Below, one piece after another: positions 31,963-37,656 of a DNA stretch of 64,000 bases. The stretch is from positions 21,916 to 85,915 of the forward strand of contig CAIUHP010000118.1 of the NCBI GenBank assembly GCA_903899015.1, written 5' to 3'. Numbering within the stretch: position 1 is the stretch's first letter; the number at the start of each line of letters is the position of its first letter. Origin of the DNA: an uncultured Armatimonadota bacterium (GTDB lineage Bacteria; Armatimonadota; Fimbriimonadia; Fimbriimonadales; Fimbriimonadaceae). Made by a program: the position numbers and the translations under genes. Below the pieces are notes generated by a model. It was not told the DNA's origin and did no database searches. It saw nothing but the letters and a program-made list of their open reading frames with translations.

Positions 31963-32038
31963 TGGCGCGCTCGATAGGACTCGAACCTACGACCCTCAGC
32001 TCCGCAAGCTGATGCTCTATCCACTGAGCTACGAGCGC
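31963..32038 (-). tRNA. tRNA-Arg with GCG anticodon
   Basis: A 76-nt cloverleaf is complete on the minus strand. It has acceptor GCGCTCG/CGAGCGC, D-stem GCTC/GAGC, anticodon stem TCAGC/GCTGA with loop TTGCGGA, T-stem GTAGG/CCTAT with loop TTCGAGT, discriminator G and an encoded CCA. The loop puts GCG at positions 34-36, reading CGC (Arg). Most bacteria use ACG edited to inosine for the CGU/CGC/CGA box, so GCG is unusual. A terminator follows. Confidence 0.95.
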
Positions 32039-33571: not shown

Positions 33572-33748
33572 TGATTTGACCGACACGCGTACCCTCTCGA
33601 ACCATAACTCAAGGCTTGGATGGAATCAAGTGTAATAGGGAAAAGAAAGACAGAACGTGATGTTTTGCTATTCTGATTGTCTTCAAGGGCATATTTCTTC
33701 CAAGAATTCCTGCAATGGTTTAGACTGCATTCGCAGGTTCGAACATCG

Positions 33749-34237
33749 ATGCTAATCCGCGATATTATGACGGTTGATCCCGTCCTCATTGACCCCGACG
33801 CTAACCTTCTCCGGGCAGCGGAAATCATTTCTCTCACAGAAGTTACCGACATCATGGTTGTCGGCGAAGGTCAGAAATTTATTGGTGTTTTTTCGGAAGG
33901 AGACATCCTTCGAGCCATGCTCCCGAACGTCGACGAAATCATATCGGCGGGTGGTTCCCTAAAAGACGCATTCGATTTCTTCAGCAAGAAAGGACAAGCT
34001 CTTCGTAACCGACCGATTGCCCCTTACATTATTCGAAACGCCATCGCGATGAGGCCAAATGACAACGCGGCTATGGCTGCGACCGCGATGATGGAGAAAC
34101 AGATCCGACGGTTGCCAGTTGTCGATGGTGATCGGCTCGTGGGAACAATCTCAAGGTCCGATATTTGTCGAGCTTCCGTGTTTGGGTTCACCCGGTATCA
34201 GCCAGATCCAGTTGTACTTGAAGGTAGTCCTCTCTAA
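33749..34237 (+). CDS. Two-CBS-domain protein
   Basis: This 162-aa protein consists of two CBS domains. The first has IRDIMTVDPVLIDPDANLLRAAEIISLTEVTDIMVV. The second has NAIAMRPNDNAAMAATAMMEKQIRRLPVVDGDRLVGTISRSDICRA. CBS pairs bind adenine nucleotides or related ligands and regulate partner proteins. The frame is open from 33677, but ATG 33749 begins directly at the first domain. The TAA stop shares its last base with the start of the giant redox enzyme gene (TAATG), so the two are surely co-expressed. A regulatory role towards that enzyme is inferred. Confidence 0.85.
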   Translation: MLIRDIMTVDPVLIDPDANLLRAAEIISLTEVTDIMVVGEGQKFIGVFSEGDILRAMLPNVDEIISAGGSLKDAFDFFSKKGQALRNRPIAPYIIRNAIAMRPNDNAAMAATAMMEKQIRRLPVVDGDRLVGTISRSDICRASVFGFTRYQPDPVVLEGSPL

Positions 34238-37200
34238 TGGCTGCGCAGTCACCCGCGCGTGAGGCGCTGAACCGCGCAATCGCAGCAAATAAGGCTAACG
34301 GGCACGAAAATCTTGGTGCGTTGTCCGAAGAATTTGGCTTTATTCCCGCTACTCGCCCGCTAGAGCGTCTACCCGCTTCTCACTCTCAGTGGGATGATTT
34401 AGCGCATCAGCTTCCTTCGTTGCACCTAACCTTAGGATTAAGGCAAGCCGTCGAAAAGATGGCCACTCTTGACGCCTCAGCGGGACACTTGCCCGATGAA
34501 TTCCTATCTCGAGCGGCACTCGTTCTCAGCACGATCGCCCATGCTTACTGGTGGGTGGAACCAGAGGCACCAGACGAGCTTCCTGAATGCTTGAGCAAAC
34601 CTTGGGAGCAAGTTTCAGCTCGATTAGGGCGTCCCGAGGCATTCATGCCTTATACAGACGTGTTCCTTTACAACTGGCGTGCCTCCAAGGATTGCACAGC
34701 ATCGGACCTCAAACTAGAAAGGTTAGAAGTTCTGGTTCCGACCTTCGGTAACGCAGCCGAACGAATCTTCCTGCTTACACAAGTTGAAATTCACGCTCAC
34801 TGCTCGGCAATTGTCGGAGCAGTCGTGCGTGCTCAAGAAGCCGTTATCGCTGACGACCCTCACAAACTGGGCTCAGAGCTCCTTTCAATCGTTGATTGCC
34901 TCAATCACATCACCAACTATTCCCTCCTTAAAATTGACGCAGATCCTTACAGTCCAACTTACGTCGATCCAGTCGTTTGGTCGAAAACGATAGCACGATA
35001 TGCTGTGCCCATCAAAGAAGGCATTCAAGGGCCGAGTGGTACGGCTTCCCCGTTATTCCAGCTTCTTGACATCTTCGTTGGCCGGAATCAATTCAACTCG
35101 CCACTTGGCCAAGCCGCATTACAATCCCGTAAATGGCTCGCGCTCAACCACGTTCAGTTTCTAGATGCGGTCGAACAGGTTTCGATTAGGGACTACGTTC
35201 GCGAGTGTAGCGACCCAAAGATCAAAGGACTTTTTCAGTCCGTATTAGAAGCCTATGTGGGAGATACCGGCTTTCTTGGTGCCCACCGGCTTAAGGCATA
35301 TGGCTTCTTAGAAACAGCATTCAAGATGGGCCGTACTTCCGAGTATTTGGACAGCCATACCCGAATCAAAGATCGAGGGTGGGAGTGTTACCATGCCCAA
35401 CTCGCTCAGTCACGTTTAGAAAGACTCGAAGGAGCCCCAACTCATTGCCAGTTTGGACAAATCGTTTCGAGTGAAGCGACAACTGCTTCTGCTGATGACC
35501 AAGTTAAAAGCGTTATCATCAACACAAAGGATGCTGGCATTCGATTTGAACCAGGGGACCGAGTTGGGATCTTCCCGGAGAACAGTCCCGAGTTAATTTC
35601 CAAGACTCTGAAGGCACTGAAAGCTACCGGCGCGGAGAATATCCGTCTCGATGGACCTTGGAAGTCAACTTGGCCCAGTATTTCCGGAAACCATGCCGAT
35701 TCCCTACCTTTAGCTGACCTCCTGCGATACGCGAAGATTTGTCCGGTCACCCGTGATTCCGTACAGACGCTTTTCAAGCTCACCTTTAACTCCCGGCTTC
35801 AGACCATTTTGCATCGCCGCAACGAAACCCAATGGGAGCTTTCAGGCATCCTCGAGATGCTCGCTAAAAGCGGCTTTGACACTCGAAGACTGTGGAAATC
35901 TGAACCGTGGGAACCAGAGAATATCTGCAAGTTAGCCCCTACCTCCATGTTCAAGATGTTTACCGCGGCATCTGCAATGGATGGAGAAACCGATGACACG
36001 GCTCAAACTCTCGAAATCACTATCGGAGAGCTAGAAGAACAAGCTGGCTTCTATCCCAGCTCTACCGAATCTGAAGAGTTCGGGGAAGCAAGTTCGAGCA
36101 TCACCCGAAGCACTTGGTACCAAGAAGAGTTTGGAATGTTCGCCAACGGTGCCAACCTCACTCTTAAAGTCGTTCACCCGACACGCTTCCATTTGCCAAT
36201 CGATGCGAAGACTCCCATCGTCATGTTCGCTTCGGGACCAGGAATCGCACCCTTCCGAAGCTTCATTCAAGCACGCTCCCGAATGTCCCAAACGGGCGAA
36301 AATTGGCTGTTCTTCGGTGCCAATAATCACGATGAGTTCCTTTATCGTGACGAGATCGAGAGCTATGTATCCAATGGAAGGCTTAAATTCGAAATTGCTT
36401 TCTCTGCCGAGAATATTGAAGCAGAATGGGACAACCTATCAAAGCAGTACAAGTTGGTTACGGGATCTCCTCGATTTGTGTCGCAACTCATTGAATCCGA
36501 GACTATTGCCGCTAAGATCTGGGATTGCATTCGCACCCGGTCAGAAGGGGGGCTTGAAGCTAGTTTTTATGTCAGTGGAAGTGCAGGATTCGCCGTTTCA
36601 ATCATGTCGGCATTGAAGTCGGTTGTCGCTCGGTTCTCGGGAGCCAACGATGAGATGGATGCCGAAGAAATAGGCAAGGTAACGTTGTTCCGAATGGTCG
36701 GGGCGAAGCGATTCATGCAATATGTCTACGCTTCGTACACGCCTTTCGATGAAGACGAACGAACCTACCAAGTTTCTGAGATCGCTCGCCACAACTCAGA
36801 CCAAGATGGTTATTGGACAGTTATCAACGGCAAAGTCTATGACGTTACCACCTACCTAAACCTCCATCCTGGCGGGAACACAATCCTCCGTTTTAATGCG
36901 GGACTTGACGCCACAACCGCGTTTGAAAGTGTTCAGCACCACTTGAACTCGGAAATTAACGCCGTACTCGGCATGTACCAGATCGGTCGAGTACAGCAAT
37001 TGAACTTTGCCAACTCCTGGGGAGTAGCCGTAGGAGCTGAGGGTCTGCGATTCGTTTCACTCGACTCAGCTCACTTGTCATGGGTTCAATTCCTCTACCG
37101 TCTTGTGGAAATTGAAAACCTAATTGCCGTCGATCTTGCCAGTCTCTACGAACCGCTCACCCAGCATGATTCCGGCCAGAAACTTACTCCTCTCAAATTG

Positions 37201-37656
37201 CAGATGGTCATGGACACCCATCTTCGGTTTCGACATAACTGCCTCGACGGAGCGTTTTCCCAGGACTTGCACGAGCTGTGGGCTAACTCCATCGGACTCT
37301 GCGGTCCTCAGGAAAACATTCAATACATGCAAGCGGATCTCAAAGAGATTTACGGAAACTCTGACGCAGATTTCGTTCACAAGAAAACTCTTTCGCTACG
37401 CGATGAAGCTGTCCATCTACTCAGCCAGGAGGCAGAGTCAGTTGAGCGCAATACGGGAATCATTCAGACGATCCTCAATCACGACCTAAATTATCTCGCC
37501 TCGCTTAAGCGAATCGTAAGTGACTGCGTGCGAGTTTTTGAGACTTACGAACACGCCACCGCTACCTTCGGCAACGAAGAGCTTCTCGATACGATCCGGC
37601 AAATACCCGCGATTACTAAAGGCTATTACGAGTCGATGGCTAACGATCTGGCGTAA
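34237..37656 (+). CDS. IDO-type heme dioxygenase fused to FAD/NAD(P)H reductase and cytochrome b5
   Basis: This 1139-aa protein combines four parts. (1) Residues about 28-375 match indoleamine 2,3-dioxygenase: LPSLHLTLGLRQAVEKMATLD, AYWWVEPEAPDELP, FMPYTDVFLYNWR, GPSGTASPLFQLLDIFVG, and the proximal heme His at about 350 in FLGAHRLKAYGFLE. Arg254 may equal the substrate Arg231 of human IDO1. (2) Residues about 405-800 match cytochrome P450-reductase/ferredoxin-NADP reductase modules: FEPGDRVGIFPENSPELI, a degenerate FAD motif KMFTAAS, FASGPGIAPFRSFIQAR, LFFGANN and FYVSGSAG. There is no FMN domain. (3) Residues about 843-920 are cytochrome b5, with the heme ligands His877 in HPGG and His901/902. 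(4) Residues 926-1139 are helical and unassigned. The likely electron path is NAD(P)H to FAD to b5 heme to IDO heme; the substrate is unproven, as no kynurenine genes lie near. Confidence 0.85.
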   Translation: MAAQSPAREALNRAIAANKANGHENLGALSEEFGFIPATRPLERLPASHSQWDDLAHQLPSLHLTLGLRQAVEKMATLDASAGHLPDEFLSRAALVLSTIAHAYWWVEPEAPDELPECLSKPWEQVSARLGRPEAFMPYTDVFLYNWRASKDCTASDLKLERLEVLVPTFGNAAERIFLLTQVEIHAHCSAIVGAVVRAQEAVIADDPHKLGSELLSIVDCLNHITNYSLLKIDADPYSPTYVDPVVWSKTIARYAVPIKEGIQGPSGTASPLFQLLDIFVGRNQFNSPLGQAALQSRKWLALNHVQFLDAVEQVSIRDYVRECSDPKIKGLFQSVLEAYVGDTGFLGAHRLKAYGFLETAFKMGRTSEYLDSHTRIKDRGWECYHAQLAQSRLERLEGAPTHCQFGQIVSSEATTASADDQVKSVIINTKDAGIRFEPGDRVGIFPENSPELISKTLKALKATGAENIRLDGPWKSTWPSISGNHADSLPLADLLRYAKICPVTRDSVQTLFKLTFNSRLQTILHRRNETQWELSGILEMLAKSGFDTRRLWKSEPWEPENICKLAPTSMFKMFTAASAMDGETDDTAQTLEITIGELEEQAGFYPSSTESEEFGEASSSITRSTWYQEEFGMFANGANLTLKVVHPTRFHLPIDAKTPIVMFASGPGIAPFRSFIQARSRMSQTGENWLFFGANNHDEFLYRDEIESYVSNGRLKFEIAFSAENIEAEWDNLSKQYKLVTGSPRFVSQLIESETIAAKIWDCIRTRSEGGLEASFYVSGSAGFAVSIMSALKSVVARFSGANDEMDAEEIGKVTLFRMVGAKRFMQYVYASYTPFDEDERTYQVSEIARHNSDQDGYWTVINGKVYDVTTYLNLHPGGNTILRFNAGLDATTAFESVQHHLNSEINAVLGMYQIGRVQQLNFANSWGVAVGAEGLRFVSLDSAHLSWVQFLYRLVEIENLIAVDLASLYEPLTQHDSGQKLTPLKLQMVMDTHLRFRHNCLDGAFSQDLHELWANSIGLCGPQENIQYMQADLKEIYGNSDADFVHKKTLSLRDEAVHLLSQEAESVERNTGIIQTILNHDLNYLASLKRIVSDCVRVFETYEHATATFGNEELLDTIRQIPAITKGYYESMANDLA

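Follow-up and report, generated by a model that had tools for sequence, protein, structure and literature searches.

Domain architecture of the fusion protein

On the forward strand of a 64,000-nt window, by which we mean the whole stretch of Armatimonadota DNA analysed, a single gene (34237..37656; this and all features below lie on the + strand) encodes a 1139-aa protein in which an indoleamine 2,3-dioxygenase (IDO)-type heme domain is followed by an FAD/NAD(P)H reductase, a cytochrome b5 and a helical tail. On balance we favour the reading that this fusion is a self-contained oxygenase that would pass electrons from NAD(P)H through FAD and the b5 heme to the IDO-type heme, its substrate probably being a compound other than L-tryptophan. 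The original prediction of one chain with this order of domains is confirmed, as domain searches and the predicted fold agree on it. The IDO-fold heme domain (residues 10-398, 34264..35430) matches PF01231 above the cut-off, with a fold match over residues 2-404. The module behind it, of the CysJ/P450-reductase type with FAD and NAD(P)H parts and without an FMN domain (residues 405-840, 35449..36756), scores 39.4 bits for the NAD(P)H-binding domain PF00175 (cut-off 22) and 22.4 bits for the FAD-binding domain PF00667, which is under the cut-off of 32.3, while a fold match to reductases is present; no FMN/flavodoxin family was matched in the domain searches of the fusion protein. The cytochrome b5 domain (residues 846-920, 36772..36996) is matched by PF00173 with 70.2 bits (cut-off 23.7; Pfam Cyt-b5 1.5e-19), and the C-terminal helical domain (residues 921-1139, 36997..37653) is, among the searches made, confined to the fusion family. 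Structure searches with the full model gave only reductases or reductase fusions among the 50 Foldseek matches listed and only IDO among the 50 VIA matches listed, so that these searches test those parts alone. We found no description of such a fusion in open-licence papers, a search that probably missed the comma spelling of '2,3-dioxygenase'.

The IDO-type heme domain and its substrate

The predicted proximal ligand of the oxygenase heme is His350 (35284..35286), which is kept in 86/86 rows and aligns with a His in all 19 single-domain IDOs among the relatives (387-438 aa), in agreement with the earlier placement of this ligand at about residue 350. What sets the fusion family apart is the position equivalent to human IDO1 Arg231, here Ala253 (34993..34995), which is Ala or Gly in 27/27 fused proteins whereas it is Arg in 19/19 ordinary single-domain bacterial IDOs of the alignment. 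The same position is Ala in 77/77 reductase-less sisters, and a larger locus alignment gives A 43, G 31 and P 2 over 76 rows. (In those 76 rows position 350 reads G once; this and the two P at position 253 are most likely misalignments.) Since we take Arg231 to be the residue that binds the carboxylate of tryptophan in IDO, its replacement by Ala or Gly makes tryptophan an unlikely substrate, which backs the doubt raised originally, and judged from these alignments the substrate of the fusion family probably differs from L-tryptophan.

If the fusion instead dioxygenated tryptophan for the kynurenine pathway, FAD and b5 would serve only to hold the heme in the ferrous state, and another residue, for example Arg283 or Lys353, would bind the carboxylate. 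The first of these (35083..35085) is family-specific, being R in 86/86 rows and 77/77 sisters, and in 27/27 fused proteins as opposed to Val or Ile in 19/19 single-domain IDOs, and Lys353 is likewise present in 27/27 fused rows; together with the IDO fold and His350 this speaks for such an enzyme, and the Ala/Gly at the Arg231 position speaks against it. The host genome also bears on this question, as it holds one kynureninase match over the cut-off (257.5 vs 246.4 bits, contig C78), no match to TDO and no second match to the fusion protein, which favours a tryptophan dioxygenase and makes the missing nearby kynurenine genes, the original reason for doubting tryptophan, weak evidence. Against it, the kynureninase lies on another contig amid sugar-transport and creatininase-like genes that look unrelated by eye. 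Ordinary IDO genes cut both ways: one directly follows the fusion in the cyanobacterial locus L077 and another is found in L024, on the opposite strand and ∼8 kb downstream, a proximity that would suit tryptophan chemistry, yet with an ordinary IDO present besides it the fusion there is not simply the genome's IDO. Taken together we consider a tryptophan dioxygenase unlikely. A kynurenine operon that includes the fusion gene was considered and dropped, as the kynureninase on C78 sits outside the 64,000-nt window.

In place of the GTGG loop found in single-domain IDOs, the fusion family has a TxGGxxG motif in the substrate-loop region (residues 369-375, 35341..35361). This motif is gone in the Armatimonadota copy through T369E, G371L, G372D and G375T, and 4/9 of its conserved loop/linker positions are altered (family median 0); the predicted model has pLDDT < 50 at residues 368-374.

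Reductase and cytochrome b5 of the Armatimonadota copy

The family motif RxYS, which we presume to be the FAD motif of CysJ/P450-reductase-type reductases, is well kept among rows with a letter there (R 80/81, Y 78/81, S 78/81) and reads KMFT in the Armatimonadota copy (residues 573-576, 35953..35964). Conserved reductase positions are altered at 10/54 in this copy, among them R573K, Y575F, S576T, T617E and C780S, against a family median of 2 and with more changes in 3/77 rows; several of these changes are conservative, so FAD may still be bound. Over 15 motif positions checked for heme, loop, FAD and b5 the Armatimonadota copy has lost 9. The eroded FAD site and the lost substrate-loop motif render the self-sufficiency of this copy less certain than that of the family, and they weaken the original description of this protein as 'self-sufficient'. 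Both predicted b5 heme ligands are retained, His877 of the HPGG motif (36865..36867, 80/81) and His901 (36937..36939, 80/80), and changes at conserved positions are few in b5 (1/16) and tail (1/11). The same-genus relative P0004 is changed in the loop, the FAD site and 13/69 conserved IDO positions. It shares in part the loss of loop and FAD motifs seen in the Armatimonadota copy, and b5 and tail are preserved.

One way to read these losses is that the gene is decaying in the Armatimonadota lineage and functionless now, to which the changes in both proteins and the occurrence of the full fusion in 2/20 of the own-or-same-genus genomes listed (60 matchless genomes lie outside this listing) would correspond. 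However, the frame is intact over 1139 codons, all heme-ligand positions are retained, b5 and tail are nearly unchanged and the upstream CBS gene remains coupled by a 1-nt overlap, all of which makes decay highly improbable.

Comparison with known systems and proposed mechanism

The fusion shares with IDO (IDO1/IDO2, bacterial IDO, PF01231) the fold over residues 2-404, the proximal His and a conserved core, and departs from it in the loss of Arg231, the replaced GTGG loop and three further domains on the chain. For residues 405-840 the best sequence and fold matches are CysJ, cytochrome P450 reductase and the FAD domain of the P450 BM3 reductase, from which the fusion differs by having no FMN domain and, in the Armatimonadota copy, by altered RxYS and Cys residues. 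As an oxygenase with a built-in reductase whose fold matches, P450 BM3 offers a works-like analogy, though unlike the fusion it is a thiolate-ligated P450 with an FMN domain and no b5.

Flavohemoglobin (Hmp) can also be likened to the fusion, as it too unites a heme O2-binding domain with an FAD/NAD(P)H reductase in a single polypeptide, with the differences that Hmp has a globin fold, no b5 and another reductase type. On this shared logic of heme and FAD reductase in a single chain the fusion could be an NO dioxygenase or similar detoxifier, an IDO-fold counterpart of flavohemoglobin that is perhaps linked to bacillithiol. Bacillithiol-type genes near the fusion in 6/89 loci searched, with BshA and BshB1 over the cut-off in L006, would agree with this, as would the flavohemoglobin-type gene and Rrf2 regulator downstream in L127; Pfam assigns globin, FAD and NAD domains to the former, whose NCBIfam equivalog score is under the cut-off. 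A flavohemoglobin neighbour was, however, seen in 1/89 loci searched, the best BshA match of the host genome is under the cut-off (121.3 vs 273.7 bits), the conservation of loop residues hints at a substrate of organic nature and flavohemoglobins are not known to need b5, so that we hold this detoxifying role to be very unlikely. Bacillithiol as a general function was rejected, with the four-gene set in 6/89 loci and a host without BshA over the cut-off, and is kept as a lead only.

A functional parallel to the self-contained oxygenase that we favour is offered by human IDO1, which together with cytochrome b5 and NADPH-P450 reductase makes up the same three functional parts on separate proteins (PMC13142367, PMC4191572); this supports the analogy drawn originally, and the fusion differs in being one chain without an FMN domain. 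The superfamily of heme-dependent aromatic oxygenases includes IDO (PMC12921851, PMC11791213), and by model and alignment the fusion shares its IDO/TDO fold and His-ligand position. No built-in reductase is mentioned for members of this superfamily in the accessible parts of PMC12921851, PMC12312684 and PMC11791213. In MarE ascorbate promotes monooxygenation and an active-site loop tunes the outcome (PMC12312684), a precedent for an electron donor shifting the outcome of a reaction, and for PrnB neither cytochrome b5 and P450 reductase nor any other redox system tried gave product (PMC11791213).

Tryptophan dioxygenation proceeds without extra electrons (PMC12312684), and so a reductase and b5 borne on the chain fit an electron-consuming reaction better, which could be monooxygenation or the repeated rescue of ferric heme. 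From the conserved domains and ligand positions we infer the bound cofactors, the electron route and the reaction: electrons would travel on one chain from NAD(P)H to FAD, the b5 heme and the IDO-type heme, where O2 would be activated against a non-tryptophan substrate. In the Armatimonadota copy electrons may flow slowly or come from another reductase, as must hold in the reductase-less sisters. More tentatively, the family may form a new branch of heme-dependent aromatic oxygenases, namely NAD(P)H-driven, two-heme, signal-gated monooxygenases, in which a CBS partner that senses adenylates, often joined by an FHA domain that reads phospho-threonine, would switch the FAD/b5 electron flow. In such a branch the tryptophan anchor would have been dropped for a new substrate, some lineages might serve bacillithiol or secondary metabolism, and the module of the Armatimonadota lineage, its substrate loop lost, might be turning into a heme sensor.

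The reductants serving human IDO1 in cells are still called unclear (PMC13142367). If our favoured reading is true, a natural enzyme that unites FAD, b5 and the IDO-type heme would put this electron-supply question within direct experimental reach, the fusion might be used as it stands to drive other heme-dependent aromatic oxygenases, and the conserved CBS/FHA coupling would be a new mode of heme-oxygenase control.

CBS partner gene and signalling neighbours

Directly upstream of the fusion lies a CBS-pair gene (33749..34237) whose TAA stop overlaps the fusion-gene ATG by 1 nt, the two sharing an A. Its product of 162 aa from the ATG at 33749 is matched by Pfam CBS in two stretches (81.4 bits, cut-off 24; 6e-23); the frame also offers a TTG start at 33677. 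A gene with two CBS domains adjoins the fusion in 55/75 judgeable loci, and likewise in the Armatimonadota locus. These 75 come from 80 loci, five without upstream DNA being left out; L057, whose fusion frame is broken, was therefore entered manually, and L040, with little upstream DNA, was scored as not adjacent. In a different set of 75 full-length loci (open frame >1000 aa) an FHA domain is present in at least 31, 29 found by pattern and L004 and L005 by eye, a lower bound because the pattern missed these two and L031 and L046 align badly; all 31 FHA-bearing loci also have CBS. Other signalling parts comprise a fused cNMP-binding domain (L029), a class III cyclase gene overlapping downstream (L054, L063) and a PAS histidine kinase-response regulator upstream (L044, L071). 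The analysis has thus added to the original prediction a conserved CBS partner and FHA and other signalling domains, besides the size of the family, the reductase-less sisters and the eroded FAD site and substrate loop of the Armatimonadota copy, all of which had gone unseen earlier. With CBS neighbours and FHA domains recurring in this way the oxygenase system looks regulated, and the CBS partner, plus FHA where present, may gate the oxygenase via adenine nucleotides or phosphorylation.

The same neighbours would be expected if the fusion were a signalling protein, a heme/redox sensor of O2, NO or redox state. Its state would be determined by FAD, b5 and the IDO-type heme, and the helical tail or a partner would relay it to CBS, FHA, cNMP, cyclase or histidine-kinase outputs; the Armatimonadota copy, its loop lost and its FAD site eroded, would be a pure sensor. 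Besides the recurrence of these domains (CBS 55/75, FHA 31/75), the loss of loop and FAD motifs in the Armatimonadota copy and partly in P0004, with b5 and tail retained, favours a sensor. On the other hand, the substrate-loop T369 is kept in 84/86 rows and 77/77 reductase-less sisters and 91/172 classified relatives possess the NAD(P)H-FAD module, which points to turnover, and FHA and CBS could equally well be inputs controlling an enzyme; a sensor thus seems to us rather improbable, and we retain the regulated oxygenase as the preferred reading.

Distribution of the family

Nearly two hundred related proteins were found, with gene copies in nine bacterial phyla, and plasmids gave no match to the fused or the reductase-less form. 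In a precomputed Pfam column, 74/85 relatives combine IDO and b5 with at least one reductase family (PF00175 and/or PF00667), and the other 11 are without one of these three parts. The reductase is absent in 81/172 classified relatives and is, by these domain assignments, optional in the family; that about half of the relatives are without it counts against self-supply. A label count on a FastTree tree of 169 rows (24 proteins with a failed motif search and three short ones omitted) gives five changes of reductase state, with 41/166 inner branches open. P0193, Parastagonospora by source name, groups there with P0077 (Aquimarina) on long branches, its placement and fungal origin being unsure.

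In six loci of reductase-less sisters a family-reductase profile, which other kinds of reductase could escape, found no separate reductase within about 6-9 kb (6/6). CBS likewise had no match in 6/6 of these loci and a match in 3/3 reductase-bearing loci fetched alongside, one on the opposite strand, both in a small, related sample. In 20/75 full-length loci none of the 15 positions checked for heme, loop, FAD and b5 has changed; the fusions of L007, L010 and L062 have intact motifs, and that of Herbidospora L036 deviates at 1/15 positions.

A reductase-bearing IDO fusion in nine phyla

The architecture proposed for the 34237..37656 (+) gene, an indoleamine 2,3-dioxygenase (IDO) domain followed by an FAD/NAD(P)H reductase, cytochrome b5 and a helical tail (1139 aa), is real, conserved and of wider reach than originally envisaged. 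Among 5.8 billion proteins searched, 86 were matched, the window's own (P0002) included, and a scan of genome contigs from 84,980 species gave 151 coding stretches matched by the family alignment. The best 80 of these 151, which form our set of loci, span nine phyla: Actinomycetota (32), Chloroflexota (21), Myxococcota (7), Pseudomonadota (6), Bacteroidota (5), Bdellovibrionota (3), Armatimonadota (2), Cyanobacteriota (2) and Poribacteria (2), where phylum is the NCBI rank of the record title and, as many are MAGs, single assignments may be wrong. No description of an IDO-reductase-b5 fusion turned up in the literature searched. The window's genome carries one copy, and among 100 related genomes the full fusion occurs in a single further one, G013, which is of the same genus and has a copy at 47% identity, the other 19 matching genomes having single-domain IDOs only (about 390-440 aa). 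His350, proposed as heme ligand, is kept in 86/86 aligned proteins (the window's and the other 85), and the b5 ligands H877 and H901 in 80/81 and 80/80 of the rows with a letter at that position. We predict that the fusion belongs to the heme-dependent aromatic oxygenases, carrying its own reductase and b5 and accompanied by a partner gene for regulation.

The short member P0087, used as query, matched 211 proteins at E <= 0.001, and among the matches listed (120 of 211) many run directly from IDO to b5 to tail. The spacing from heme His to HPGG was used to sort the proteins of both searches: 91 of 172 classified proteins had a reductase and 81 lacked one, 24 unclassifiable proteins lying outside the 172; a FastTree tree of 169 classified proteins requires at least five changes of reductase state. 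A253, R283, H350, T369, H877, H901 and R997 are each present in 77/77 reductase-less sisters, N961 in 76, W949 in 59 and E1102 in 48. Because of this conservation and the 91 to 81 split, IDO, b5 and tail form the constant core, the tail being the loosest of the three, with the reductase as an optional part.

Six Myxococcota and Bdellovibrionota members (L035, L037, L040, L049, L055 and L071) have long N-terminal parts, with a GGACT/AIG2-like region, a domain also found in P0048, and a b5-like stretch (by eye), and about 150-200 additional C-terminal residues with no Pfam match. An IDO-b5-tail protein lacking the reductase, P0193, carries the fungus Parastagonospora nodorum as source name; transfer from bacteria or contamination is possible.

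The substrate site and L-tryptophan

We aligned 27 fused domains, picked from the 80 loci for spread, with 19 single-domain IDOs from relatives and a segment of human IDO1. Opposite IDO1 R231, which we take to bind the tryptophan carboxylate, the fused domains have A (19) or G (8), whereas all 19 single-domain IDOs have R; in the larger locus alignment (76 rows) the position is A in 43, G in 31 and P in 2. All 27 fused domains have W opposite IDO1 F226, R283 where single-domain IDOs have V/I, and K353 where they have Y/F, and D274 is retained in all rows. Where single-domain IDOs carry a GTGG loop, the fused family has TxGGxxG instead. Taken together, the replacements at R231, at further sites and in the GTGG loop make L-tryptophan an unlikely family substrate, which backs the doubt already voiced about it. 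The window's genome gave neither a TDO match nor a second match to the fusion. It holds a kynureninase over the NCBIfam cut-off (L104:5813-7102 (-), contig C78), adjoining a creatininase-like gene.

A CBS-domain partner and a possible electron route

The gene immediately upstream of the fusion (33749..34237 (+), ATG at 33749) encodes a protein of 162 aa with two CBS domains, and the last base of its TAA stop is the first base of the fusion's ATG. The neighbourhood survey of homologues that had been suggested found a CBS profile match adjoining the fusion on the same strand in 54/75 judged loci (53 upstream, 1 downstream), or 55/75 once L057 is included; only three other CBS profile matches occur within the loci, one being L057's own partner. 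Most of the 20 judged loci lacking CBS belong to Myxococcota, Bdellovibrionota, Bacteroidota and Poribacteria. An FHA domain precedes the IDO domain in 29/75 full-length loci (by pattern), all 29 with a CBS gene; inspection by eye adds L004 and L005. Other links are a C-terminal fusion to cNMP-binding domains (L029), a class III cyclase gene overlapping the fusion downstream (L054, L063), a PAS histidine kinase-response regulator upstream (L044, L071) and a RidA-type gene upstream in eight loci from Chloroflexota, assigned by clustering and in one case confirmed with Pfam. At L011:1318-6045 a single 1576-codon open frame holds the whole IDO-reductase-b5-tail plus a saccharopine-dehydrogenase-like domain. 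The sole tRNA found in the window, tRNA-Arg (gcg) at 31963-32038 (-), lies about 2.2 kb upstream of the fusion.

According to two papers, human IDO1 is supported by P450 reductase and cytochrome b5 (PMC13142367, PMC4191572), and the fusion has the same parts, P450 reductase-type and b5. Electrons would pass from NAD(P)H to FAD to b5 and on to the IDO-type heme, the last station of the route, where O2 would be bound. Since IDO/TDO chemistry does not need additional electrons (PMC12312684), a permanent reductase suggests an electron-consuming oxygenation. The same paper describes MarE, where the electron donor can shift a same-superfamily enzyme towards monooxygenation, and another reports monooxygenase activity for IDO itself (PMC12921851). 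The CBS protein may gate the reductase: a CBS match is present in 0/6 reductase-less loci examined and in 3/3 reductase-bearing loci fetched alongside.

The state of the window's copy

Compared at conserved positions among 77 full-length rows, the window's copy is changed at 4/69 in the IDO domain (median 2), 4/9 in loop and linker (median 0), 10/54 in the reductase (median 2, with three rows changed at more than 10; R573K, Y575F, S576T, T617E and C780S are among the window's changes), 1/16 in b5 and 1/11 in the tail. Its same-genus relative P0004 has likewise lost the loop, carries S576P, G616D, T617P and S619L, and is changed at 13/69 conserved IDO positions. From a set of 15 positions covering heme, loop, FAD and b5, the window has lost nine; 20/75 loci keep all 15. 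The self-sufficient oxygenase originally envisaged stands as regards the heme ligands, which the window's copy retains, and is weakened by its reductase and loop/linker changes. Because loop and FAD positions are lost, though heme ligands are kept, a reductase-linked oxygenase is better supported for the family than for this copy.

Metabolic neighbourhoods

A four-gene set lies within about 10 kb of the fusion in 6/89 searched loci (L005, L006, L007, L009, L025 and L132); it encodes a glycosyltransferase of BshA type, a deacetylase of BshB type, a PIG-L/cNMP protein and a protein of 390 aa lacking a family match. In L006, BshA scores 291.5 bits (cut-off 273.7) and BshB1 280.7 (cut-off 182.5); no BshA over cut-off was found in the window's genome. 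The 390-aa protein is perhaps the cysteine-adding step of this bacillithiol-type set. Both cyanobacterial loci (L077:48-9058, called by Pfam, and L024:9926-22820, called by profile, clustering and eye) have ordinary IDO, Amidohydro_3 and sulfotransferase genes near the fusion, also encode a protein of 369 aa that in L077 matches no family, and look like a natural-product gene cluster. The metabolic neighbourhoods suggest that the fusion has more than one role, or that a single chemistry serves several pathways. In one further locus the genes that immediately follow a reductase-bearing fusion (L127:11700-13328) encode an Rrf2-type regulator and a protein of flavohemoglobin type.
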